Source of the DNA: Chitinophaga sp.
GTDB lineage: Bacteria; Bacteroidota; Bacteroidia; Chitinophagales; Chitinophagaceae
Assembly (NCBI RefSeq): GCF_017745275.1
Contig: NZ_JAGHZS010000008.1
Coordinates: 124,001-188,000 of the forward strand
Direction of reading: 5' to 3'
DNA length: 64,000 bases
In this document: piece by piece, positions 35,669-58,061 of the stretch
Numbering within the stretch: position 1 is the first letter of the stretch
Layout: each line of letters opens with the position of its first letter
Made by a program: the position numbers and the translations under genes
Notes under the pieces: generated by a model
What the model saw: only the letters and a program-made list of their open reading frames with translations
Database searches by the model: none
What the model was told of the DNA's origin: nothing

Positions 35669-36601
35669 TTATTTCCAGTTCTTCTGTTTCACTTCTTCAT
35701 AAACACTGGTAATACCTTCTTCCAGAGTGCGTTTGGCCTTCCAACCATAACTGTGTAATTTACTTACATCCATTAGCTTTCTTGGGGTGCCATCAGGTTT
35801 ACTGGTATCAAAAACCAGTGTACCTTCAAAACCAACAATCTTCTTTATTAATACAGCAAGATCCCCGATACTGATATCTTCACCAACGCCGATATTTACG
35901 AGTCCTTTCTCATTATAATTTTGCATGAGATAGAAACAGGCATCTGCCATATCATCAGCGTGGAGGAATTCCCGTTTGGGCGTACCCGTTCCCCAAATTA
36001 CAACCTCTGGTGCTTTATTTAATTTTGCTTCGTGCATTTTACGGAGCATTGCGGGCAATACATGAGAATTATTCAGGTCATAATTATCGTTAGGACCATA
36101 TAAATTAGTAGGCATTACGGAAATGAAATTACTTCCATATTGCGCTCTGTAAGCATCACACATTTCTATTCCTGCAATCTTGGCAATTGCGTAGGGCTCA
36201 TTCGTTGGCTCCAATGGTCCGGTCAATAAATATTCCTCCTTCAGGGGCTGTGGAGCTAATTTAGGATAGATACACGATGACCCCAGAAACATCAGTTTCT
36301 TCACTTTTTGCACATGCGCATGATGAATAACATTGTTCTGAATCATCAGATTTTCATAAATAAATTGTCCCCGATAAGTATTATTAGCCATAATACCTCC
36401 AACCTTCGCTGCTGCCAGGAAAACGTAGTCAGGTTGTATTTGTTCAAAGAATGTTGCAACAGCCGCCTGATCGCGCAAATCAAGTTCTGCAGACGTTCTC
36501 GTTATAATGTTATTAAGCCCTTCCTTCTGCAGACGCCTTACAATAGCTGAACCAACCATTCCTCTGTGACCTGCAACGTATATCTTATCCTGGACATTCA
36601 T
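35669..36601 (-). CDS. fcl: GDP-L-fucose synthase
   Basis: The 310-residue SDR enzyme has the Rossmann motif GHRGMVGSA near the N-terminus, the catalytic region LGSSCIYP with YAIAK (Tyr/Lys), and the C-terminal [10 protein letters not shown] typical of WcaG/Fcl. It epimerises and reduces GDP-4-keto-6-deoxy-mannose to GDP-L-fucose. It starts 2 bases after the gmd stop, so the pathway is complete in two linked genes. It is the last gene of the locus before the Wzi-like gene. Confidence 0.96.
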
Positions 36602-36603
36602 AT

Positions 36604-37716
36604 TTATTCGAATTGATTTAATACTTTGTAACCTGCATCTTTCAACAGTTTTTCGCGCTGAAAAAGCTCCACGTCAGCTGCTACCATCTCTTTTACAAGT
36701 GCAGGTAAATCATACTGCGGCTCCCATCCTAATTGTTTCTTTGACTTGGTTGGGTCTCCTATCAGCAAGTCAACTTCAGTAGGCCGGAAGTATCTCGGAT
36801 CAATTGCTACAATTTCCTGTCCAATTTGAAGTGGTGAGCTACTATCCTTTAATGCCTTCACATATCCTTTTTCTTCTGCGCCGGTTCCCTTGAACTCTAC
36901 TTCTACACCTACTTCCGCAAAAGCCATTGTAATAAAATCTCTCACAGTGGTGGTAATACCAGTGGCAATTACATAATCCTCTGGCTTGTCCTGTTGCAGA
37001 ATTAACCACATTGCTTCCACATAATCTTTGGCGTGTCCCCAGTCTCTTTTAGCATCCAGATTCCCCATGAACAGTTTATCCTGCATACCCAGAGAGAGTT
37101 TTGCCACTGCCCGGGTGATCTTTCTTGTTACAAAAGTTTCACCACGCAACGGGCTTTCATGATTAAAGAGGATACCATTACAGGCAAACATATTATATGC
37201 TTCTCTATAATTTACCGTGATCCAGTAAGCATACATTTTAGCCACTGCATAAGGAGATCTTGGATAGAAAGGAGTCCTTTCTGATTGTGGTACTTCCTGC
37301 ACTAAACCGTACAACTCAGAAGTAGATGCCTGATAAATTTTTGTTTTCTTTGTAAGTCCGAGCAATCTAACAGCTTCAAGTATACGCAATGTACCAATAC
37401 CATCTACATCTGCAGTGTATTCAGGTGCTTCAAAGCTCACTTGTACGTGGCTCATGGCTCCCAAATTGTATATTTCATCTGGTTGTACCTCCTGGATAAT
37501 ACGAATCAGGTTCGTGCTATCCGTTAAATCTCCATAATGAAGCTTGAATTGAACATTTGTCTCATGTGGATCCTGGTATAAATGATCAATTCTGTCTGTA
37601 TTAAAAAGAGAACTTCTTCTTTTAATACCATGAACTTTGTAGCCTTTTTTTAACAGCAATTGCGCTAAATAAGCACCATCCTGACCGGTTACACCTGTAA
37701 TAAGAGCAATTTTCAT
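36604..37716 (-). CDS. gmd: GDP-mannose 4,6-dehydratase
   Basis: The 370-residue protein has the [16 protein letters not shown] nucleotide-binding start and the catalytic STSELYG and YAVAK motifs of Gmd; [11 protein letters not shown] and [14 protein letters not shown] complete the family picture. It makes GDP-4-keto-6-deoxy-D-mannose for the following Fcl. Length is normal. Confidence 0.97.
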
Positions 37717-45910: not shown

Positions 45911-46564
45911 TTAATTGAATACAGTAAAAGTTCCATCAGGATTAGTTGCTTTCCAGCTATTGCTGTTGAAATCAAATCTTTTTACGATGATGGCCGGGCT
46001 TCCGGTGATGATAGAATAATCCGGGTAATCGCCTTTTCTGACTACGGCATTGGCACCAACTACACAATGCTTGCCTAATTTAACTCCCGGTAATATGACA
46101 ACGTTATTATAAATTTTACAGGCAGCTCCTATTACTACTGGCGTTACCACTAATGTCTGGTATTCCGGAGCAACCTGAATGTCTTTATATGGATGATCAA
46201 TATCTGTAATACTAACATTTGCGGCAATGGCTGTATCTTTCCCTACTTCGATGCTTCCTGCACAGGTAAGATGCAGGTTCTGCTGAATGGTAACCCGATC
46301 TTCCAGCAAAATAGCAGGTGAATACTTTATTCCCATATAAGCGGCTACTCCTTCTACTCTACCATGATGTCCTATATGTACACTATCACCAAGTGTCATA
46401 AATTCTGGTGTTAGTTTTATGGGTTTTATGATAATACATCCTTTTCCCAATTTTCTTGTGAAAAGTCCATACCACCAGGCAGTTTTTGTACGATAAAAAA
46501 AAGTGCGAAGTATGACTACCTGATTGAATAAAGATTGCTTAAAAAAAAAGTTGTACAATGCCAT
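45911..46564 (-). CDS. Hexapeptide-repeat (LbH) acyltransferase
   Basis: The 217-residue protein shows the left-handed beta-helix hexapeptide pattern from about residue 60 to 190 (ILLEDRVTIQQNLHL, VVIGAACKIYNNVVILPGVKLGKHCVVGANAVVRKG), with the loop histidine in ITDIDHPYKD. Such enzymes O- or N-acetylate sugars from acetyl-CoA. In this locus it could decorate the repeat unit, or it might fill the missing LegH step of the nonulosonate pathway; the distance from the Leg genes argues for decoration. Confidence 0.88.
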   Translation of the reverse strand: MALYNFFFKQSLFNQVVILRTFFYRTKTAWWYGLFTRKLGKGCIIIKPIKLTPEFMTLGDSVHIGHHGRVEGVAAYMGIKYSPAILLEDRVTIQQNLHLTCAGSIEVGKDTAIAANVSITDIDHPYKDIQVAPEYQTLVVTPVVIGAACKIYNNVVILPGVKLGKHCVVGANAVVRKGDYPDYSIITGSPAIIVKRFDFNSNSWKATNPDGTFTVFN

Positions 46565-48029: not shown

Positions 48030-49415
48030 TTAAATATTATTTTTTTCCATAAAATCAGAAAACATGGCGGCATCAAAATTCTTAAAAAAGAATCCTTCCT
48101 CATACTTTTCTGTTACCACATTATCATCGAGTATCTGTTTCAGTTGCATGGCATCTGATACAAAATGTAAATTCACCAGACCTTCTGCGTCATCCGGGGT
48201 CATTGCCCCTTCTACGTTGTAAACAATACCTGTTCTTTGTGCCTGCAATGCCTCGTAGATTGCCGTAGATTTAATCACCAGGGTTGCTTTCGTTTGCTGA
48301 ACCAGCTGCCCCATACTCATTTCATTGGTAATAACGCTGACGGTATCAAACGACTCAAAAGCCGCTGCATAGAAAGCTGCTTCATTCCATTGATTGGGAT
48401 GTAATTTGAAATAAACCATGGTATGATTGTCTAACTTCAGAAACGCCAAAATAAATTCTTTTAGCTGTTCACCATAAATGTTGGCACTTACCACTGTTAA
48501 GCCTTCAGGTTGCTTCCCCTCTACTGCTTGCATCAACAAGCTTTTATAGAAGCTGGTGTTACCGATCGGCATTATTGTTCCAACCGGGTAAAATAATAGC
48601 TTTGTCCAATATTCTGAAAAACTAAAAAAATAAGCCGGCAGGCAAATGGACAATGCCGGATAACTAATGCGCTCGTTATAACTGTAAGCAATATGTGCTC
48701 TTTCTATTAGCCCGTGCTGATATTCTATTACTGGAACTCCAAGATCTCTTCCCGCTGCAAATAGCCCTTTCTGTATACCATTCTGTGTTATAAATATGGC
48801 TTTTACCTGCTTTCTCTTTATAATCCGCTTATAAAAACCATAATCAAATTTAAAGCCATTAATAAGGTTATTTAAATACTGATTATCGAGGCCAGGGCAA
48901 CTGCCAAATGTAGTATTAATAAGGTTCAATAAACTGGTGTAGTCATCTCTTTTATAAAATCGCTGTAGAATTCTCCTCAACAGACCAATATTATAGTAGT
49001 TACTTTGGGGATATTGATAGGCTGATTTTTTTGCTTCAAATGTTTCGAGGATAAAGGCTTCCTTGTGAAGCCGTTTTAATACATCATCCAAGTTTTGATC
49101 AAAGAACTTGTTATCTGAAGATTTATTTCGGGCATTTGTAATCATCAGATATTTATACTTTCCGAAGAGGAAAAAAAAGGCCAGTCTTGCCAGGTAAATA
49201 ATGTTCTGACATAAGCTCTTGATAGCATTTTTTTTGGTAGCAATGGCGGTTGTTACTACTTTATCCTGGTTACGTAACAAACAATAAAAAACATCAAAAC
49301 GTACAAGATCCCATATAAATAAACCAGCTCCATTCTTCAATCCGAATAGCCCGTTTTCTTCTTCAAAAGTATGGAAGCTTCGCCAGTCAACCAGTTTATG
49401 CTCACAATTACTCAT
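48030..49415 (-). CDS. Putative GT-B glycosyltransferase, candidate nonulosonate transferase
   Basis: The 461-residue protein has no clear family match that I recognise. It shows an EYQHGLIERAH segment (about residue 240) and, later, YFKLHPNQWNE (HP motif) and LVIKSTAIYEALQAQ (an S/T motif before a helix). HP and S/T motifs in this order occur in bacterial sialyl- and polysialyltransferases and in related CMP- or CDP-dependent transferases of capsule loci. The upstream neighbour is the CMP-nonulosonate synthetase (27-base gap), so it is a good candidate for adding the nonulosonic acid. This is inference. Confidence 0.7.
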   Translation of the reverse strand: MSNCEHKLVDWRSFHTFEEENGLFGLKNGAGLFIWDLVRFDVFYCLLRNQDKVVTTAIATKKNAIKSLCQNIIYLARLAFFFLFGKYKYLMITNARNKSSDNKFFDQNLDDVLKRLHKEAFILETFEAKKSAYQYPQSNYYNIGLLRRILQRFYKRDDYTSLLNLINTTFGSCPGLDNQYLNNLINGFKFDYGFYKRIIKRKQVKAIFITQNGIQKGLFAAGRDLGVPVIEYQHGLIERAHIAYSYNERISYPALSICLPAYFFSFSEYWTKLLFYPVGTIMPIGNTSFYKSLLMQAVEGKQPEGLTVVSANIYGEQLKEFILAFLKLDNHTMVYFKLHPNQWNEAAFYAAAFESFDTVSVITNEMSMGQLVQQTKATLVIKSTAIYEALQAQRTGIVYNVEGAMTPDDAEGLVNLHFVSDAMQLKQILDDNVVTEKYEEGFFFKNFDAAMFSDFMEKNNI

Positions 49416-49442: not shown

Positions 49443-50132
49443 TTATCTGTTTGCATTCCGATGAATAAGGAACTCTGTCCACTCCCAATCCAATGGATTA
49501 TCTATATCTACTGAAGAATAATCATCCATAACATATTTACGGATCTTGGAAAACTCCTGGAATGATTTATTTGTCAATGCTTTGACATTGATTACATAGA
49601 TAGCGCCATTATATTCCCATACCTTGGGACAATCATGCCTGCTGGTAAAGTTTCCTGTTTTCGACTTTCGAAGAAATCCTTCTTCATTTTCTTCAAATAA
49701 TACATAATATGGATTGGAGGAGGTTTCTTTCACGCTCACCACCATATCAAGCTCTTCATTATATAAAGCCATTGCTTCTTTTACCTGTTGGGAATTACGA
49801 AGAGGAGAAGTAGGTTGTAACAGCACAATTACATCATACAGCACTCCCTTTTGGCTATAAAAATCGATGGCGTGTAAACAAACCTCCCTGGATCCGGCAG
49901 TATCTGATGCCAGTTCTTCCGGCCTTACAAAAGGGACTTTCAGTCCGGTACTTTCCGCTACTTTTATAATGTTGGCATCATCAGTTGATATGCATATATC
50001 CTCGTTGCTGGCGAGGTCCTGGGCTACTTCTATGCTATAATTAATAAGCGGCTTATTATTAAGTAGTTTGATATTCTTACCTGGAACACCTTTGGATCCC
50101 CCCCTTGCAGGAATTAGAAATAATGGCCTCAT
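49443..50132 (-). CDS. neuA: CMP-nonulosonate cytidylyltransferase (NeuA/LegF type)
   Basis: The 229-residue protein opens with the signature FLIPARGGSKGVPGKNI and has VLLQPTSPLR and the metal-ligand VDIDNPLDW end typical of acylneuraminate cytidylyltransferases. It couples CTP to a nonulosonic acid, giving the activated donor. With the PtmE-like, NeuC-like and NeuB-like genes upstream it completes a legionaminic/neuraminic-type pathway. The PtmE-like gene ends 2 bases upstream. Confidence 0.93.
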   Translation of the reverse strand: MRPLFLIPARGGSKGVPGKNIKLLNNKPLINYSIEVAQDLASNEDICISTDDANIIKVAESTGLKVPFVRPEELASDTAGSREVCLHAIDFYSQKGVLYDVIVLLQPTSPLRNSQQVKEAMALYNEELDMVVSVKETSSNPYYVLFEENEEGFLRKSKTGNFTSRHDCPKVWEYNGAIYVINVKALTNKSFQEFSKIRKYVMDDYSSVDIDNPLDWEWTEFLIHRNANR

Positions 50133-50134
50133 GT

Positions 50135-51184
50135 TTAAAAGTTAAGGTGTTTGATATCCTCCTGCGCCTGAACGAAATCCTGCGGGCGACCGATATCCAG
50201 CCAATATCCGAGAATGGGATAGTGCATCACTTTCTTCTTCTCTGCGATTAGTAGTTCCATAAAGTCAGTTGCATTAAAAAACTGTCCTTTATTTAAATAG
50301 GATAACAGTGATTTTTTCAGGAGATAAATTCCGCCGTTAGAGTAGTAACTGTAAGTTGGTTTCTCATCAAATGAAATTACATCACCACCTGATATCTGTA
50401 AAACAGCATATGGAATTTTCACCTGATAAGGAATGCTGGCAATCATGAAATCTGCTTCGGATGCAACGAACGACTTATAAAAATCCAGGAGGTCAATGTT
50501 GGTAAGTATATCAGAATTCATTAGCAGAATGTCATCCGAATTAAAACCATCGATGAGGCTCAATGCCCCAAATGTTCCGAGTGGTTCATCTTCTTCAACA
50601 TATCCGATGTTAATATTCTTTGACGTGCCATCTCCGAAATACGACTTAATTTGTTCGCCAAGATACCGGATAGAAATGGTAATATGTTGAATACCGAAAT
50701 TGGCAAAACGATCGATATTATGTTCAATAATTGGTTTAGATCCCACCTTCAACAACGGCTTCGGACACTGATCTGTGAGAGGTGCCAGCCGTTCTCCCCG
50801 TCCACCAGCCATCAATACCGCACAAATCGGCAATAGCTCACGATATTGGTTCAAATCCAAAACACCAATCACTTCCTTGAAGTTGCCAAGAACCGGGGCA
50901 AAGCGTATATTTTTATTCCTCAATACCTCCACTTCTGCTATTGGAGGTTGGTGAGAAACAAGATATCTGCAGGAAGCATTGCATACGTTATTTATTAAGT
51001 CAGCAGGTGTAACATCCTTTAACAGCCCCCTCCTTATATCTCCATCGCTCACAGAACCACACAGACGTCCTTCGTCATCCACTACAAATAAAACCGCATT
51101 TACAATTCCTAAACGATCTATTTGTGCCATTGCCTGCTTAACAGTAGCTGCGTTACTAATTAAGTGTAGTTTCCAATTCTGCAT
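50135..51184 (-). CDS. CBS-domain nucleotidyltransferase (PtmE-like)
   Basis: The 349-residue protein combines a CBS pair (about 1-115: VVDDEGRLCGSVSDGDIRRGLL) with a nucleotidyltransferase domain starting at CAVLMAGGRGERL (about residue 121) and ending with GYWLDIGRPQDF. The same fusion in Campylobacter, PtmE, makes GDP-glucosamine for GDP-linked legionaminic acid synthesis. The position between NeuA and NeuC types supports that role here. Mannose-1-phosphate guanylyltransferase activity is a possible alternative. Confidence 0.87.
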   Translation of the reverse strand: MQNWKLHLISNAATVKQAMAQIDRLGIVNAVLFVVDDEGRLCGSVSDGDIRRGLLKDVTPADLINNVCNASCRYLVSHQPPIAEVEVLRNKNIRFAPVLGNFKEVIGVLDLNQYRELLPICAVLMAGGRGERLAPLTDQCPKPLLKVGSKPIIEHNIDRFANFGIQHITISIRYLGEQIKSYFGDGTSKNINIGYVEEDEPLGTFGALSLIDGFNSDDILLMNSDILTNIDLLDFYKSFVASEADFMIASIPYQVKIPYAVLQISGGDVISFDEKPTYSYYSNGGIYLLKKSLLSYLNKGQFFNATDFMELLIAEKKKVMHYPILGYWLDIGRPQDFVQAQEDIKHLNF

Positions 51185-52342
51185 TTATAAGTCGTAAAAT
51201 TGTTTTTGAATATTTTTTATCTGTGTAAAACCTGCAAACACTTTCATCATCTGTTCTGTGGTATTCCCATTACCATAAGGATTTTCTATTTCCTTACATT
51301 TTTGCATAAACTCACCAGAGAAAGCAATTTCCATACCTTTTATGATATCTGCACTAGTGGGATTAACATGTAATACGCTATCTGCTGCAATTCTCCCTTT
51401 CTGTCTGTCGCCTATATTAACTGTTGGAATATGAAAAGAAGGAATTTCCACTATTCCACTGGATGAATTTCCTATCACTGCTTTCACATAAGGGATCAGG
51501 GAAAGATATCTTTTCTGTCCCAGAGATTGAAATGCAAAAAATTTATCGGGGTATTGTTTTACGGTATCCTGAATCATTTCAATTACTACTCTGCCATCGG
51601 CATCTGCATTTGGATAAGTTATTACCACCTGCAAATCCTTAAAATGGAGCAAAGCGTTTATTATTTCCTGAAACTGGCTCCTGGAGGTGTTTTTTTCCAA
51701 TGTTACCGGGTGGTAAGTGACTAATACGGTAGGTCTGGAAAGATCAATAGATAAGGATGCCTCCAGTTCCTGCTGGGAGAAGCGCTCCATTTTCTTAATA
51801 TTATCTATACCAATAGCGCCAACATTGAATACTCTTGCTGGGTCTTCTCCTAACTGAATGACTCTTTTCCGATATACTTCTGTAGCAGTAAAATGCCAAT
51901 AGGCCATCTTGGTAATAGCATGCCTAAAAGCTTCGTCGGTAGCTCCTTCTGTTGTTTCTCCACCACTTATGTGTATAATGGGGAATTGAGCGATATAGGC
52001 AGCTGAAGCTGCCGCAAACGCTTCAAATCTATCTCCCAGTATTACTACATAATCAGGATTCAGCGCAGCAAACGCATCTGTATAGCCTATGATGCCAATA
52101 CCCACTGATTTAGAGATTCCTACAGCGGTGTCACTTGAAAGCAACATATCTACTTTTGCGTCTATTTTCAAACCATCCGCTTCGATCAGCTTATAGGTAA
52201 GTCCAAATTCCGGCGAGAGGTGCATGCCGGTTACCAACAGCTGCAATTCAAAATCGCTTTCAGCTTCAATTGCTTTCATTAAGGGCAGCAGCAAACCGTA
52301 TTCAGCACGTGTTCCGGTAACAAAACAGACTTTCTTCCTCAT
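51185..52342 (-). CDS. neuC: Hydrolysing UDP/GDP-sugar 2-epimerase (NeuC/LegG type)
   Basis: The 385-residue GT-B-fold protein has the NeuC signature FVTGTRAEYGLLLPLM, HISGGETTEGATDEAFRHAI, and the C-terminal GNSSSGIVEIPSF with the nucleotide contact. It splits off the nucleotide and epimerises C2 to give the free hexosamine used by NeuB. In LegG/PtmD enzymes the substrate is a 2,4-diacetamido-6-deoxy sugar. It overlaps the NeuB-type gene by 4 bases and abuts the PtmE-like gene. Confidence 0.95.
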   Translation of the reverse strand: MRKKVCFVTGTRAEYGLLLPLMKAIEAESDFELQLLVTGMHLSPEFGLTYKLIEADGLKIDAKVDMLLSSDTAVGISKSVGIGIIGYTDAFAALNPDYVVILGDRFEAFAAASAAYIAQFPIIHISGGETTEGATDEAFRHAITKMAYWHFTATEVYRKRVIQLGEDPARVFNVGAIGIDNIKKMERFSQQELEASLSIDLSRPTVLVTYHPVTLEKNTSRSQFQEIINALLHFKDLQVVITYPNADADGRVVIEMIQDTVKQYPDKFFAFQSLGQKRYLSLIPYVKAVIGNSSSGIVEIPSFHIPTVNIGDRQKGRIAADSVLHVNPTSADIIKGMEIAFSGEFMQKCKEIENPYGNGNTTEQMMKVFAGFTQIKNIQKQFYDL

Positions 52343-53343
52343 ATGGCTATCAGTTCATCCATTTGAAAGTCTCTTTCTGCCTTTTTACCAATAACGTCAA
52401 ACCAAAGCATCGGACTTAATCCATCACCCGGTCTTTTCACGGTAAGGTTTTCTTCTGTAAATAATTCCCCTTTCTTAATATCTGTGGCTGCTACAATACT
52501 CTTACGTGCAATACTTTTATTTTTGCTTTCGGATGCAGAAGGGACCTTGTTGCCACTACCTAATGCTTTTTCCACATTACGTATGGCCCTCACCATCGCT
52601 GCTAACTCATCGGGCGACAAAGATGCTGCATGATCCGGACCTTCCATCGCTTTATCTATGGTATAATGCTTTTCAATCAGGCGTGCACCTAATGCTACTG
52701 CAGCTACAGGTGCTTCAATTCCCGGAGTATGATCAGAATATCCGATCTGTACGTTGCACTCCTTACCAATAGTTTGCATGGCCTTCAGATTGGCATCTTC
52801 GAAAGGTGTAGGATACTCTGTATTGCAATGTAACACAACAATATTTTCTTTCTTTGCACCGTATTTTATCAGGATGTCTATCGCTGTTTTGATCTCTTCC
52901 ATATCAGTCATACCTGTAGACATGATAAGTTTTTCAAAGCTTTTCGCCATTTTGATCAGGTAGGGCAAATTGACAATTTCTCCTGAAGGTATTTTACCAT
53001 AGGAGATGCCAAGATCCTTTAAAAAGTCTATACTTGGGAAGTCAAAAGGGGTTGACAAAAACATAATGCCTTTGTCAGCAGCATAGGCATTTAGCTCTAT
53101 AAACTGGTCAAATGATAATTCCAGTTTTTTGACCATATCCAGTTGCGTCTCATTTGCACCGGTACTTTCTTTCTGGTAGGCTGCTTTCTGGGCAAATTTA
53201 GAGATGCCTTTTTCTGCAATAAAAGTCTGAAACTTAACAGCATCAGCCTTTGCGTCAACGGCTATATCAATAAGTTGTTTGGCTAAGCGTATATCTCCAT
53301 TATGATTTACTCCTGCTTCGGCAATAATAAATACTTTTTCCAT
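52339..53343 (-). CDS. neuB: Nonulosonic acid synthase (NeuB/LegI type)
   Basis: The 334-residue protein has an N-terminal TIM barrel (IIAEAGVNHNGDI, HCNTEYPTPFEDANL, GYSDHTPGIEAPVAAVALGA) and a C-terminal SAF/antifreeze-like domain (about 275-332). It condenses a 6-deoxy-hexosamine or N-acetylmannosamine with phosphoenolpyruvate. The surrounding LegB/LegC/PtmE homologues suggest legionaminic acid or a relative rather than neuraminic acid. The HAD gene ends 19 bases upstream. Confidence 0.95.
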   Translation of the reverse strand: MEKVFIIAEAGVNHNGDIRLAKQLIDIAVDAKADAVKFQTFIAEKGISKFAQKAAYQKESTGANETQLDMVKKLELSFDQFIELNAYAADKGIMFLSTPFDFPSIDFLKDLGISYGKIPSGEIVNLPYLIKMAKSFEKLIMSTGMTDMEEIKTAIDILIKYGAKKENIVVLHCNTEYPTPFEDANLKAMQTIGKECNVQIGYSDHTPGIEAPVAAVALGARLIEKHYTIDKAMEGPDHAASLSPDELAAMVRAIRNVEKALGSGNKVPSASESKNKSIARKSIVAATDIKKGELFTEENLTVKRPGDGLSPMLWFDVIGKKAERDFQMDELIAI

Positions 53344-53362
53344 GCAATAAAATTAAACAGAT

Positions 53363-53680
53363 TTATTTTTTCTTCCGCATATTGATTTTCTCCTTGACAT
53401 TCACCCAATTATCGCAGGTGATTGCCCTGTCATCAATCCAAACATCGCCTATGGGTTTTCCTAGTATTAGCTGATGGTAGGGCACGTGATGACGCTTTAA
53501 CCAATCAACAGTCATTTCATATTCCATCCAGGTACGGGCGGAATAAAGGATGATAATGTGTCCTTCATTATACAGTTCAGTTATATTCTCTATTGCATTC
53601 GGCAAAGGTTTCGCCATACTTCTGCTAAACTGACGTTCTTCCGTACAAATTGTACCATCCAAATCAATTATTATCTGCAT
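53363..53680 (-). CDS. Small HAD-type capsule phosphatase-like protein
   Basis: The 105-residue protein has HAD motif I (IIDLDGTIC), motif II (ILYSART) and the terminal DVWIDDRA motif, but lacks a cap domain. Such short HAD proteins are frequent in capsule and nonulosonate loci. It may remove a phosphate, as from a 9-phosphate nonulosonate or from a sugar phosphate. Its start overlaps the ATP-grasp gene by 17 bases, so the pair is translated together and precedes neuB. Confidence 0.82.
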   Translation of the reverse strand: MQIIIDLDGTICTEERQFSRSMAKPLPNAIENITELYNEGHIIILYSARTWMEYEMTVDWLKRHHVPYHQLILGKPIGDVWIDDRAITCDNWVNVKEKINMRKKK

Positions 53681-54617
53681 AAAAATAAAATTCTCTAAAG
53701 GCTCTTACCATTAACAAATTCTCCCGCCATTGATCAAAAGGAGCATTAATTATATTTTGATAATCATTTAATAAATATTGTACCACATCTGCACCAGCAG
53801 CGATAGACGTTAGTACCCCTCCTCCTAGTCTGGGATTAATTTCCATCACAAATACTTTCCCACTTGATTTCTCTTTCAAAAACTGGATAGTAATGGGGCC
53901 AATAAATTTTCCCGCCATTAAAATTTGTTTAGAGAGATCTATGATGCTATCATCTTTTATGGTAATCGATTTGATAGCTTCTCCGCCAGCCACTTCTAAA
54001 CGTTTTCTGGGCACAATGGAGACAATATTAGCATTTTTTCCAACGTAGCAGTCAACAGTATACTCATCAGCAACAACAAAATGTTGCAGCAGATAGTCAG
54101 ACGTCTCTTTTTCTTCTTTAAATCTTGCAAAAGACTGATCGTCTTTTAATATAATTAATCCTTTGGAAGCGGACCCATAGCGGGGTTTGGCTATCATTGG
54201 CCAATTCCCGGTATTATTATCCGGCACAGGGAAAGCATTCTGAATAAACCAATCATTTGCAGATACCTTATCAAACATAATGTGACAAATATTCTCGTCG
54301 CTGACAGGAATAAAAATATCAGGCAACAAACGGCCCAGATGCCGGGATATGAGGATAGCAGGATCTACAAAAGGTAGCACAATATTAATGTGGTTATCCT
54401 GAATACATTGAGCTAAATGTGCCAATATATTTTCATCTTTCCATCGCAGTCCAACAATTACTTCGGCCACTTCGGCAATAGGGACAAATTTATCCAATTC
54501 ATATGAAAATATTTTAACATTAATATTTCTCTCTTTTCCCGCCTTGATAAAATGCTCTGCTATAGAAGTTCTTTTTGCTCCTCCAAGGAATAATATATTC
54601 AAGGTTTTCTCATGCAT
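53664..54617 (-). CDS. ATP-grasp domain protein in the nonulosonate cluster
   Basis: The 317-residue protein has a pre-ATP-grasp Rossmann-like region (about 8-105) and an ATP-grasp domain (about 115-300), with KPRYGSASKGL in the ATP loop, EYTVDCYV in the middle and VMEINPRLGGG for metal binding. It belongs to the CarB-like carboxylate-amine ligase group. Linked to the HAD gene (17-base overlap) and then NeuB, it may attach an acyl or amino-acid group to an amino sugar. No LegH-type acetyltransferase is adjacent. Substrate unknown; function is inference. Confidence 0.85.
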   Translation of the reverse strand: MHEKTLNILFLGGAKRTSIAEHFIKAGKERNINVKIFSYELDKFVPIAEVAEVIVGLRWKDENILAHLAQCIQDNHINIVLPFVDPAILISRHLGRLLPDIFIPVSDENICHIMFDKVSANDWFIQNAFPVPDNNTGNWPMIAKPRYGSASKGLIILKDDQSFARFKEEKETSDYLLQHFVVADEYTVDCYVGKNANIVSIVPRKRLEVAGGEAIKSITIKDDSIIDLSKQILMAGKFIGPITIQFLKEKSSGKVFVMEINPRLGGGVLTSIAAGADVVQYLLNDYQNIINAPFDQWRENLLMVRAFREFYFYADNN

Positions 54618-55190
54618 GGCTGCTTTTTTTTTCCTAATAGACGTTACGGTTAATATTACAAATTAGTTCTCCGTGTGACAATTACCTTAGTTCAAAAACT
54701 TAGATTAACAAGTTGAGTCTTTTTTAATGTGGTCATACCTGTTTTACATTCCAACCATATTTCATGACTTATCCATTATCAGTGAACACATCACAGATTA
54801 TATGTTTTTCAATAAATCAATTTGAATATTTCGTGGCTTTCCAGATATGTTTTGGAGAATTACTTTTAGAGTAAATCAACACCTGTTTTGAGTAACTATT
54901 CATTACAGTTACTACGTTCGAGGCTTCCAAATAATGTAATACTCAACCATGATTCATATTAACACAAATCATTATAACCACATTTTAGTGTTATTATGGC
55001 AGCTAAGTTAATATAATTTTAATAGAATGTATAGAAATACCTCCATCATGGGGAGTTTGTAGACATAAAACAGAAAAACGAAGGGGAATGAGGCTGAGAA
55101 ACATAAATTACTTGCTGGCTAAGGTATGCGGCTTACACTTTTACTAAGACACAGCATCTTCCAATAAACGCTTTTCAGGGAAGGTAACCT
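54618..55190. other. Intergenic stretch of 573 bases, AT-rich
   Basis: I see no supported coding frame. A weak inverted repeat (AGTAACT...AGTTACT near 54892-54914) is the only structure noticed. The gap separates the ATP-grasp gene from the methyltransferase gene and so probably holds a promoter of the ATP-grasp-HAD-neuB unit; no exact TAnnTTTG box was found. Confidence 0.6.
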
Positions 55191-55853
55191 TTATTTAACT
55201 GCTAAAATAACATAGTCGCTGATATGAATTTGTTCGTTGTGAGAAGTGTAGTCCAATGAATCAATTGATTCAATTGTAAATACTGATCCGTAAATATCGT
55301 GTATAGATGCTTTATTACTAAGACGGATAAACCCTTTACCTGAAAGAGGTCCATCAGAAACATTGTTAAATTCTAACAGCCCTATCTCATCATAGGTTTT
55401 TCCCAAATACATTTTATCTGAAAAAGTACGGCTATACAGCTTGCCTTGTGGCTTCAGCACCCGTCTAATTTCCTGTAATATTCTCCGGGTATTCTCCTGA
55501 TTATTGGTATATAAACATTGATTGTCTATTACCGCGTCGAAAAAGTTATCTTCATAAGGCAGGATGGAAATATCTCCTATGCTTAGGCTGGCTGACAAGC
55601 CTTCCCTTTGTAACCTGCTGACAGCAATGTCAATGGCTACTTTACTGGCATCGATACCATAAGTATCAAACCCCTCCCTTGAAATAAACCAGATATTGGC
55701 ACCTGTTCCGCAGCCAACTTCCAATATTTTAACCCGGGGCCGGTTAGCTTTGTAGTAGTTGCGGGCAATGAATTGTATGAGACTTTCTGATGGATATTTG
55801 CCCCATTCCTGGTTAGCAAAAACATTATCCCAAATGGGATCCCAACTTTCCAT
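55191..55853 (-). CDS. Class I SAM-dependent methyltransferase
   Basis: The 220-residue protein has the SAM-binding motif ILEVGCGTGANIWF (about residue 40), the acidic residue after strand 2 (TYGIDASKVA) and the conserved YEDNFFDAVIDNQ. It fits small methyltransferases that methylate sugars, lipids or precursors in polysaccharide loci. The gene starts 55 bases after the stop of the LegC-type gene, on the same strand. Its substrate is not clear; O-methylation of the nonulosonate is one option. Confidence 0.9.
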   Translation of the reverse strand: MESWDPIWDNVFANQEWGKYPSESLIQFIARNYYKANRPRVKILEVGCGTGANIWFISREGFDTYGIDASKVAIDIAVSRLQREGLSASLSIGDISILPYEDNFFDAVIDNQCLYTNNQENTRRILQEIRRVLKPQGKLYSRTFSDKMYLGKTYDEIGLLEFNNVSDGPLSGKGFIRLSNKASIHDIYGSVFTIESIDSLDYTSHNEQIHISDYVILAVK

Positions 55854-55908
55854 AGTGCGATAGTATTAAAATTAAAAAAATTAAAACTAAGCAACCACAA
55901 ACATCTTA

Positions 55909-57066
55909 CTACACCGGTAAAAAACGGACACTGCTCGGTATATTCACCACACGGTCTTCTAACCATTCTGCATTCATTAAATCTCCCTTTTGGCAGTGCT
56001 CATACATAGGCAGCCTGGTCATCAGGGTCCATATGGGTCTGCACATTACCTGCTGTTGATTGGCAAATGCAAGGAAATTATCTCTTTCCTCACGGTTGTT
56101 CAACAAAATTGCATTCAACCAAAAATTAGCTTTACCACCTGGTATTTCCTGTACAAAAGGAATACCTTTCTCACTAAAATAATTTTTGTAAAGGCTTGCC
56201 AATTCCCGTTTATTCTCCACAAAGCTGTTAAGCTGTTCCAGCTGGGCGCATGCCAGTGCTGCAGTAATATTTGGTAACCGGTAATTGTAGGCAATTTCAT
56301 CATGCACGAATTCCCATGCATGAGGTATTTTGGCCGTGGTAGAAATATGCTTAGCTCTGTGGGCTACACTTTCATCATTGGTAATAATTGCACCTCCTGC
56401 ACCGCAGGTAACCGTTTTATTACCGTTAAAACTAAATGTACCCATCAGGCCGAAAGTTCCTGTATGCGCTCCCTTATAATAACTACCCAGAGATTCAGCA
56501 GCATCTTCAATCAACTTAATATGAAAAGCATTACACACCTCTGCAACTTCATCTATCCTTAAAGGGAAACCAAACGTATGCATTGGCAGGCAGGCAACAA
56601 TTCGTCTTCCACTTGTTTTATTTATACAAACGCCTTCCTCATTGATGTAAGTATTATTTTCCAGGAAAGTCCGCAAAGCAGTTGGTGACAATCCCATGGT
56701 ATCTTTGTCTACATCTACAAAAACGGGTACCCCACCCGCCTGGCTAATCGCATTGGCTGTGGCAACAAATGTAAGTGGCTGTGTAATCACTTCATCGCCA
56801 TGTCTGACGTCTGCAAGTACCAGTGCGAGGTGCAAAGCAGCAGTGCCGTTTACTATTGCAATAGCATACTTTGCTCCTGTAATTTCAGCCATCATCCGCT
56901 CAAATCTGTTAACATACTCCCCCACAGAAGAAACGAAAGTAGAATCTAATGTATCCATTACATATTTACGCTCATTCCCCCCAAAGTAAGGAGCATGTAA
57001 TGGTATAAATCCCTCCGGTTTGTTAAATACTGATCTTATGTAAGCTACTATTTCCTCCTGTATCAT
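55909..57066 (-). CDS. legC: LegC-type PLP-dependent sugar aminotransferase
   Basis: The 385-residue DegT/DnrJ-family protein has FIPLHAPYFGGNERKYVMDTL near the N-terminus, VNGTAALHLAL, and the PLP lysine in GTFSFNGNKTVTCGAGG (about residue 195). The N-terminal pattern is typical of LegC, which aminates the 4-keto sugar made by LegB. Its start overlaps the legB stop by 4 bases. The product would be a UDP- or GDP-4-amino-4,6-dideoxy hexose. Confidence 0.93.
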   Translation of the reverse strand: MIQEEIVAYIRSVFNKPEGFIPLHAPYFGGNERKYVMDTLDSTFVSSVGEYVNRFERMMAEITGAKYAIAIVNGTAALHLALVLADVRHGDEVITQPLTFVATANAISQAGGVPVFVDVDKDTMGLSPTALRTFLENNTYINEEGVCINKTSGRRIVACLPMHTFGFPLRIDEVAEVCNAFHIKLIEDAAESLGSYYKGAHTGTFGLMGTFSFNGNKTVTCGAGGAIITNDESVAHRAKHISTTAKIPHAWEFVHDEIAYNYRLPNITAALACAQLEQLNSFVENKRELASLYKNYFSEKGIPFVQEIPGGKANFWLNAILLNNREERDNFLAFANQQQVMCRPIWTLMTRLPMYEHCQKGDLMNAEWLEDRVVNIPSSVRFLPV

Positions 57067-58061
57067 ATGTTGTAGATATCCGCTTTGTATTGTTTTAAAT
57101 GCTGATCATTCCTGAACCAGGCAATTGTTTCCTCCAATCCCTGATCCAATGTATAAGATGCAGTCCAGGATGTGTGTTGCTTCAATTTTTCGCAAGAACC
57201 AAACAACCTGAATACTTCGCTCTTAGCGGGCCTTAACCGGTCAGAATCATGCAAAATGGTAGCATTGGGATTGATGAGATTCACAATCTTCTGCGCCAGG
57301 TCACCTACCGTTATTTCAGATTGAGTGGCAATATTACAATCTGTGCCAATGAGGCTATCTGCCTTAGCAATAGCGACAAAACCTTTTACCGTGTCTTTAA
57401 CAAACAGTAAATCTCTTGTAGGGGTAATATCTCCCAGCTTTATTTCTGTTTTACCAGCCAGCAATTGAGTAATGATGGTAGGTATAACAGCTCTGGCAGA
57501 CTGACGTGGTCCATAAGTATTGAATGGCCTTACAATCGTAAGAGGTAAGTCGAAACTCCGGTAAAAAGATTCAGCGATACAATCTGCCCCTATTTTAGAA
57601 GCGGAATAAGGTGATTGTGGTTGTCTGTCATGTTTTTCATCTATCGGCACGTAGCATGCAGTACCATATACTTCAGAGGTAGAAGTAACCAGTACCCGCT
57701 CAATTCCCAGATCTTTCGCCGCCTGAACAATATTCAAAGTTCCTTTTACATTGGTATCTATGTAGGAATCAGGAGAATGGTAGCTAAAAGGGATAGCAAT
57801 GAGGGCAGCAAGATGAAAAACAACATCTACGCCTTTCATGGCAGTCCTTACTCCGTTTGGATCACGTATGTCGCCTGCGAAGATCTCTATATTTGATAAT
57901 TCTTCTTTTGACAATGTATCCAGCCATCCCCAGCTATTGAAAGAGTTATAATATACAAATGCTTTTACCTGCGCTCCTTCAGCCATTAATTGTTGCACAA
58001 GGTGACTACCAATAAAACCATCCGCACCTGTTACTAAAACCTTTTTATTTTTTATTTCCAT
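57063..58061 (-). CDS. legB: LegB-type NAD-dependent 4,6-dehydratase
   Basis: The 332-residue SDR protein has VTGADGFIGSHLVQQLM, then VYYNSFNSWGWLD after strand 2, which is characteristic of LegB, plus STSEVYGTA and YSASKIGAD. It removes water from UDP- or GDP-HexNAc to give the 4-keto-6-deoxy sugar for LegC, to which it is translationally coupled. The gene starts 40 bases after the Wzz-type gene. Confidence 0.93.
   Translation of the reverse strand: MEIKNKKVLVTGADGFIGSHLVQQLMAEGAQVKAFVYYNSFNSWGWLDTLSKEELSNIEIFAGDIRDPNGVRTAMKGVDVVFHLAALIAIPFSYHSPDSYIDTNVKGTLNIVQAAKDLGIERVLVTSTSEVYGTACYVPIDEKHDRQPQSPYSASKIGADCIAESFYRSFDLPLTIVRPFNTYGPRQSARAVIPTIITQLLAGKTEIKLGDITPTRDLLFVKDTVKGFVAIAKADSLIGTDCNIATQSEITVGDLAQKIVNLINPNATILHDSDRLRPAKSEVFRLFGSCEKLKQHTSWTASYTLDQGLEETIAWFRNDQHLKQYKADIYNI

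Follow-up and report, generated by a model that had tools for sequence, protein, structure and literature searches.

A paired ATP-grasp ligase and short HAD phosphatase in the LegH slot of a legionaminic-type nonulosonate cluster from Chitinophaga sp.

Background

The GDP-linked pathway to CMP-legionaminic acid of Campylobacter is described as running through LegB, LegC, LegH, LegG, LegI, LegF and PtmE (PMC3438082), and a dehydratase, an aminotransferase, an epimerase, a synthase and nucleotidyltransferases of corresponding kinds are encoded by a legionaminic-type, GDP-pathway nonulosonate (NulO) cluster at positions 49443-58061 of the stretch of Chitinophaga sp. DNA analysed here, hereafter the window (64,000 nucleotides; C22:124001-188000 of a genome of 7.94 Mb). 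Unlike the Campylobacter pathway, the window has an ATP-grasp carboxylate-amine ligase and a short HAD phosphatase at the place of LegH. Comparison with other Bacteroidota turns a missing LegH into a replacement: the ATP-grasp/HAD pair occupies the position of LegH, and its two genes move together.

Several known systems resemble this pair. Neisseria PglB2 is described as an ATP-grasp enzyme that acts instead of an acetyltransferase on a nucleotide-linked 4-amino-trideoxy-GlcNAc, giving glyceramido-acetamido-trideoxyhexose (GATDH) with a glyceroyl group on the 4-amine (PMC11130364, PMC6959607); PglB2 is fused to a phosphoglycosyltransferase and UDP-linked, whereas the window ATP-grasp is free-standing (317 amino acids (aa)), presumably GDP-linked and part of a nonulosonate pathway. 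For Campylobacter, a description is available in which Cj1438C ligates phosphorylated serinol and the HAD protein Cj1435 then removes the phosphate (PMC11800397), that is, a phosphorylated partner is ligated and afterwards dephosphorylated (PMC11800397, PMC13276843); there, however, the phosphorylated partner is an amine, the sugar supplies the carboxylate, the reaction occurs on the polymer, and Cj1435 has 25.8 kDa as against 105 aa for the window HAD. In Shewanella oneidensis, the gene of the ATP-grasp protein SfmE (SO_3265) shares an operon with those of a methyltransferase and a NeuB-domain protein, and the glycan carries a mono-N-acetyl nonulosonate with a further group of 236-264 Da; as described, SfmE differs in its 412 aa, its ATP-grasp_4 type and its pseudaminic-type pathway, and the sections of that report on the operon name no HAD protein (PMC3765264). 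Formyl-legionaminic acid of Halorubrum likewise has a variant acyl group and a possible formyltransferase in its leg region, but the enzyme there is a formyltransferase and LegH was assigned as well (PMC6137143).

An earlier, sequence-only reading of this DNA spoke of a new decoration chemistry, which is too strong, because an ATP-grasp is already described for PglB2 where an acetyltransferase would otherwise act on a 4-amino sugar nucleotide (PMC11130364). With the ATP-grasp swap already known in another pathway, the window would hold an equivalent, in nonulosonate synthesis, of the swap from PglB to PglB2. In the open-licence literature, no paper was found that describes an ATP-grasp swap for legionaminic acid or an ATP-grasp enzyme with bacillosamine.

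Results and discussion

Gene content of the cluster

Every gene of the cluster is on the minus strand, in the order LegB, LegC, methyltransferase, a non-coding stretch, ATP-grasp, HAD and NeuB, followed by NeuC, a PtmE-like protein, a CMP-transferase, a Pfam-less protein, a flippase-type protein (by eye) and a WbbJ-like acetyltransferase. The features of 49443-58061 are as follows.

57063-58061, minus: LegB-type NAD-dependent 4,6-dehydratase (TIGR04180, 488.8 bits, cut-off 475)
55909-57066, minus: LegC-type aminotransferase, which installs the 4-amino group (TIGR04181, 538.6 bits, cut-off 420)
55191-55853, minus: class I S-adenosylmethionine methyltransferase (Methyltransf_25), between LegC and ATP-grasp
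54618-55190, no strand: apparently non-coding stretch of 573 bp
53664-54617, minus: ATP-grasp carboxylate-amine ligase, 317 aa, only ATP-grasp matches; proposed LegH replacement
53363-53680, minus: short HAD phosphatase, 105 aa, EcbF/BcbF-like below cut-off
52339-53343, minus: NeuB/LegI nonulosonate synthase (TIGR03569, 491.3 bits, cut-off 399.65)
51185-52342, minus: NeuC/LegG hydrolysing 2-epimerase (TIGR03568, 484.9 bits, cut-off 235.9)
50135-51184, minus: PtmE-like protein, putative GDP-sugar start (CBS + NTP_transferase)
49443-50132, minus: LegF/PtmB-type CMP-nonulosonate synthetase (CTP_transf_3)

The sequence-only reading named LegB, LegC, PtmE-like, NeuC, NeuB and NeuA types, and genes of all these kinds are where it placed them, LegB, LegC, NeuB and NeuC confirmed above curated cut-offs and the other two probable from their domains: none of the 25 NCBIfam matches listed for the PtmE-like protein reaches its own cut-off, and the best NCBIfam model of the CMP-transferase is PseF, at 146.9 bits below the cut-off of 205.7. 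The LegB and LegC genes overlap by 4 bp, and the cluster NeuB is the sole match to PF03102 in the genome at E 0.001. That reading was also right that LegH is not seen near LegB/LegC (no match to NeuD, PseH or a formyltransferase was found within the cluster) and that a coupled ATP-grasp and short HAD precede neuB, the two genes overlapping by 17 bp (53664-53680) with NeuB next. The 573-bp gap was checked for a concealed or disrupted LegH, which was rejected, since no wholly internal frame on either strand exceeds 48 aa and nothing in it could be assigned.

Occupants of the LegH slot in Bacteroidota

A census of LegC was made in 395 genomes of the phylum, of which 138 gave a match at 1e-100 and 40 lay above the cut-off; all 40 LegC regions, the window included, were examined, and L170-L174 were set aside (below 550 bits against the LegC profile), leaving 35 LegC clusters. 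Directly downstream of LegC stands NeuD in 22 clusters, a formyltransferase in 4 and NeuC in 3. The NeuD count comprises 20 cases by gene models together with L139 and L146, whose NeuD frames the gene models had hidden; by gene models there were 8 other occupants, including the window, L136 and, before the frame check, L139 and L146. When whole regions were searched in all frames at 150 bits, 20 clusters held NeuD only, 6 a formyltransferase only, 4 both, 2 the ATP-grasp and 3 none of these. Pfam analysis of one representative each returned PF00551 and PF02911 for the formyltransferase and PglD_N and hexapeptide for NeuD, and by this census the 4-amino group is probably formylated in some LegC clusters. 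Four LegC clusters (L142, L154, L159 and L167) carry a PIG-L de-N-acetylase-like gene along with the formyltransferase, three of them NeuD too, hinting at deacetylation and then re-acylation of the sugar.

Relatives of the ATP-grasp protein numbered at least 503 among at least 587 candidates in genome contigs, and the best 80 were kept. The window and 15 of these 80 form the set of clusters with both LegC and ATP-grasp (n = 16; L136 and L031 come from one genome and were counted as one). The anticorrelation of ATP-grasp and LegH that the sequence-only reading offered as a check was found: NeuD or a formyltransferase above 150 bits is present in 30 of the 33 regions without ATP-grasp vs 1 of the 16 with it (Fisher p 7.6e-9), and NeuD alone in 24/33 vs 1/16 (p 1.1e-5), p-values that are indicative only, the rows being related and the two samples differently drawn, which takes weight from the case for a replacement. 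Among the best 80 relatives, NeuB is in reach of 69 and LegB of 66 (>45% identity), and one or the other of 75; neither is in reach in L037, L046, L067, L074 and L087, of which L037 carries LegC, HAD and PtmE-like genes. NeuD above 150 bits occurs at one of the 80 loci (L034), a formyltransferase at none.

In the 15 other clusters with LegC and ATP-grasp, the ATP-grasp gene always follows LegC directly (gap -124 to 220 bp), and the short HAD is present in 13 of the 16. This comparison did not support a conserved role for the methyltransferase beside legC, which the sequence-only reading had suggested may modify the sugar further: all 15 related clusters are without a gene at the same place between LegC and ATP-grasp, and a similar one was met only in L030, about 7 kb off. 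The 573-bp stretch (54618-55190) is possibly an insertion remnant, LegC and ATP-grasp being direct neighbours in those 15 clusters.

The ATP-grasp/HAD pair as a unit

The 17-bp overlap of the two genes recurs in 13 of 16 loci, namely the window, a plasmid of Rickettsiales and 11 of the 14 other HAD loci; the exceptions are L042 (10 bp), L036 (7 bp) and L072 (10 bp, with a short ATP-grasp frame). HAD phosphatases are recognised by a scheme of four catalytic motifs, all of which the short HAD has; in an alignment of 15 sequences D6, D8, K75, D83 and D84 are invariant, with S/T at 47. It fails the EcbF/BcbF capsule phosphatase model TIGR01689 (47.3 bits, cut-off 162), and its fold matches include 1xpj, 2obb and 9iqw. 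The matches of the ATP-grasp protein include the amino acid/amide ligases RizA, BL00235 and PylC, with PylC and RizA found by fold; no PglB2 or Cj1438 structure is among the VIA-align fold matches listed for it, which is an absence from that list only. A role of either protein in defence was discarded, no PADLOC match being obtained.

In a tree of 87 ATP-grasp sequences (with a long-branch warning for L023), HAD-bearing rows, that of Rickettsiales bacterium Ac37b outermost, surround two HAD-less sets, one of five rows (three named Flavobacteriales) and one of 61 Bacteroidales-type rows. On the simplest reading of this topology, the ATP-grasp/HAD pairing would be old and the HAD lost twice.

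Proposed reaction and candidate acid

We consider it likely, with a probability of roughly three in four, that the ATP-grasp/HAD pair performs the 4-N-acylation of LegH with a non-acetyl acid, and the reaction, the sequence of its steps and the acid are inferred as follows. LegB and LegC would yield GDP-4-amino-4,6-dideoxy-GlcNAc, and the free 4-amino group that this GDP-hexose owes to LegC would become N7 of the final acid. At the LegH step the ATP-grasp enzyme, the only amide-forming candidate recognised in the cluster, would convert a carboxylic acid to an acyl phosphate and then to an amide on the 4-amine. The HAD would strip a phosphate, either off the acid before ligation or off the product after acylation, a step that would enable the cell to use a phosphorylated metabolite as acid source. 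NeuC, NeuB and the CMP-transferase would then process the modified sugar to a CMP-legionaminic-type sugar with a non-acetyl 7-N group. As the LegB product is 6-deoxy, the HAD is presumably not a sugar 9-phosphatase.

The cluster shows no recognisable gene for making an acid, and the ligase is usually partnered by a phosphatase, so that a phosphorylated central metabolite appears to be the simplest source of the acid. The best fit is phosphoglycerate, given that glyceroyl groups have been documented on amines of this kind. Apart from the PglB2 product, these are described in Tannerella forsythia, whose nonulosonate is Pse5Am7Gra (PMC6388019, PMC6120980), and in Campylobacter, where pseudaminic acid bears a 2,3-di-O-methylglyceroyl on the 5-amino group (oxonium 391; PMC3068675). 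By this analogy, and by that with Cj1438C and Cj1435 of Campylobacter, glycerate is the leading candidate for the attached acid, at odds somewhat short of even; D-glycerate would be drawn from phosphoglycerate to give Leg5Ac7Gra, possibly O-methylated, and the window methyltransferase, though not a conserved part, could add such an O-methyl. The sequence-only reading suggested that the ligase could acylate the 4-amino group with an amino acid or hydroxy acid. Placement in the LegH slot supports the acylation, and the hydroxy acid seems favoured over the amino acid since the usual partner is a phosphatase.

Alternative explanations

A search of the genome with the NeuD model TIGR03570 gave 16 matches, one of them above the cut-off, an orphan NeuD at C22:112667-113272 (187 bits) that lies outside the window, about 67 kb from LegC. 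The sequence-only reading had foreseen a LegH elsewhere as the finding that would count against it: a candidate exists, yet all LegC-adjacent NeuDs of the tree set outscore it. This homologue speaks against a simple replacement and may be a distant LegH, with the pair modifying the same sugar later on or in another way. LegH can stand apart from LegB/LegC, as described for Campylobacter, where LegH is Cj1298 and LegB is Cj1319 (PMC3438082), and L034 holds both NeuD and the ATP-grasp/HAD pair. We nevertheless regard a distant LegH as quite improbable. The orphan adjoins a gene for a divergent DegT aminotransferase, the 20 kb examined there show no NulO gene, and a profile of 27 census NeuDs gives it 146 bits vs 192-277 for 20 LegC-adjacent NeuDs, a gap that is partly by construction since the profile was made from the LegC-adjacent NeuDs themselves; moreover, a distant NeuD leaves the contrast of 1/16 with 30/33 unexplained. 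A NeuD tree proved of no use as arbiter, the LegC-adjacent NeuDs not forming one clade and the two NeuDs of this genome being long branches of undecisive placement. A GNAT-type PseH was discarded as well, TIGR03585 giving 14 matches in the genome at E <=0.1, the best 39.4 vs a cut-off of 93.1.

The ligase might instead put an amino acid, for example alanine, on the 4-amino group while the HAD works at another step. Amino acid ligases (RizA, BL00235 and PylC) are among the ATP-grasp matches and amino-acyl nonulosonates are known, but a free amino acid does not account for two distinct HAD families pairing with this ligase family, and we hold this reading to be unlikely. It is very unlikely that the pair acts on a different sugar within this surface polysaccharide and shares only its location with the NulO genes: although the locus holds further sugar genes (two proteins at 35669-37716 resemble GDP-fucose enzymes by eye) and the pair occurs in L022 in a cluster without NulO genes, LegB or NeuB accompanies 75/80 of the best relatives in lineages from Cytophaga to Bacteroides, and LegC and ATP-grasp are direct neighbours in 15/16 clusters that have both.

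Further findings weigh against replacement of LegH by the pair. LegC and ATP-grasp occur with no HAD in L078, L090 and L092; the NeuD that L034 has besides the ATP-grasp/HAD pair groups with a LegC-adjacent one; and 9iqw, among the HAD fold matches, is a D-arabinose diphosphate phosphatase, not a glycerate enzyme. Because 3 of the 33 clusters without ATP-grasp (L147, L150 and L153) also show no acyl enzyme above threshold, absence of such an enzyme alone proves little; of these, L150 is a contig of 4.2 kb in which a formyltransferase frame of 56 bits comes after LegC. The 61-row sister group of the tree, with rows among L038-L105 (Muribaculaceae and kin; for example L043, about 9.0-13.7 kb, in the order LegB, ATP-grasp, NeuB), has LegB at 55 loci and NeuB at 51, with LegC (>300 bits) and HAD at none, and LegC above the cut-off was found in 0/9 sister-group genomes searched (best 155-402 bits; completeness not given), with B. 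ihuae as positive control. Since the ATP-grasp persists in this group where LegC is missing, the enzyme need not always act on the LegC product. The best LegC-like genes of eight of these nine genomes were rejected as substitutes, all being in other contexts and none in a NulO locus; two stand beside a HAD_2-like gene and one beside an ATP-grasp of the second clade described below. In LegC-less clusters, either a PglE-like enzyme does double duty or the ATP-grasp has a different job.

The pair outside nonulosonate clusters

Plasmid 2 of Rickettsiales bacterium Ac37b (L022) carries a GDP-mannose 4,6-dehydratase (600.8 bits, cut-off 415) and a LegC-like aminotransferase (371.4 bits, below 420), followed by the pair, with ATP-grasp and HAD 40% and 46% identical to those of the window and again overlapping by 17 bp. 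The cluster looks like one for GDP-perosamine, and since the pair occurs there without NulO genes, its association is with a GDP-4-amino sugar and not with NeuB. A methyltransferase shared with this cassette was sought and dismissed, the one there being of TylF type and without similarity at E 1e-3.

Beyond the ATP-grasps grouped with the window's (clade 1), a second clade was recognised whose members are 24-31% identical to it. At 1e-15, 20/395 genomes of the phylum match, two with clade 1 (the window and G473) and 18 others (L186-L203), each inspected together with some 1.5 kb of flanking sequence at either end; 17 of them have their best match in clade 2, and L200 is nearest to the Ac37b protein. 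An adjoining HAD gene, mostly overlapping, is present in 15 of the 18. The clade-2 partner belongs to another family, which blastp at 1e-3 does not link to the short HAD and which is HAD_2 by Pfam (two representatives, L003 and L004). Such an ATP-grasp stands in L004, L005 and L023 beside a PglC-like sugar transferase and a PglE-like aminotransferase (names given by eye or from the record), where PglD would stand; its HAD partner is present in L004 and L023 and absent from the 3.9 kb of L005. One short contig (L029:2-5622) carries both cassettes, a clade-1 ATP-grasp with short HAD, NeuB, a methyltransferase, and a clade-2-like ATP-grasp with HAD. The ATP-grasp and HAD of L200 (G596) adjoin two weakly methyltransferase-like frames, which would suit an O-methylated acyl group.

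Tentatively, we propose that a two-gene cassette of phospho-acid ligase and phosphatase may have been recruited repeatedly to transfer phosphoglycerate, a glycolytic intermediate, directly to the 4-amine of nucleotide sugars, that it would replace LegH in Bacteroidota to give 7-N-glyceroyl nonulosonic acids before glycan assembly, and that the pairing might have arisen at least twice, with two HAD families. A single modular step would then decide which acyl group, whether acetyl, formyl or a ligated acid, legionaminic-type acids carry at C7, and genes of this kind are candidates for acylations that lack an assigned gene: for Pse5Am7Gra of T. forsythia the glyceroyl gene is said to remain "elusive" (PMC6120980), and a review of Bacteroidota O-glycans states that it is unknown whether glyceroyl-like groups join the activated sugar or are added after assembly (PMC12871550). 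LegB, LegC and NeuB alone do not justify a prediction of "diacetyl-legionaminic acid".

The same swap was not supported for pseudaminic clusters, as 34 PseC regions (PseC being present in 33/344 genomes of the order Bacteroidales) are without clade-1 ATP-grasp or short HAD. Two of the 34 (L237:11269-14399 and L263:1383-4461) have a pyridoxal phosphate-type enzyme (by eye) and an ATP-grasp of about 380 aa (weak, 53 and 24 bits) between PseG and PseI, possibly another acyl swap, and other regions carry GNAT-like or formyltransferase-like genes at this place.

Neighbouring genes

Two further products are encoded beyond the CMP-transferase.

48030-49415, minus: Pfam-less protein of 461 aa, candidate nonulosonyltransferase
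45911-46564, minus: WbbJ-like acyltransferase, weakly matched by the NeuD model (26.4 bits, cut-off 160.8)

Relatives of the 48030-49415 protein adjoin NulO genes in L033, L162 and L244.

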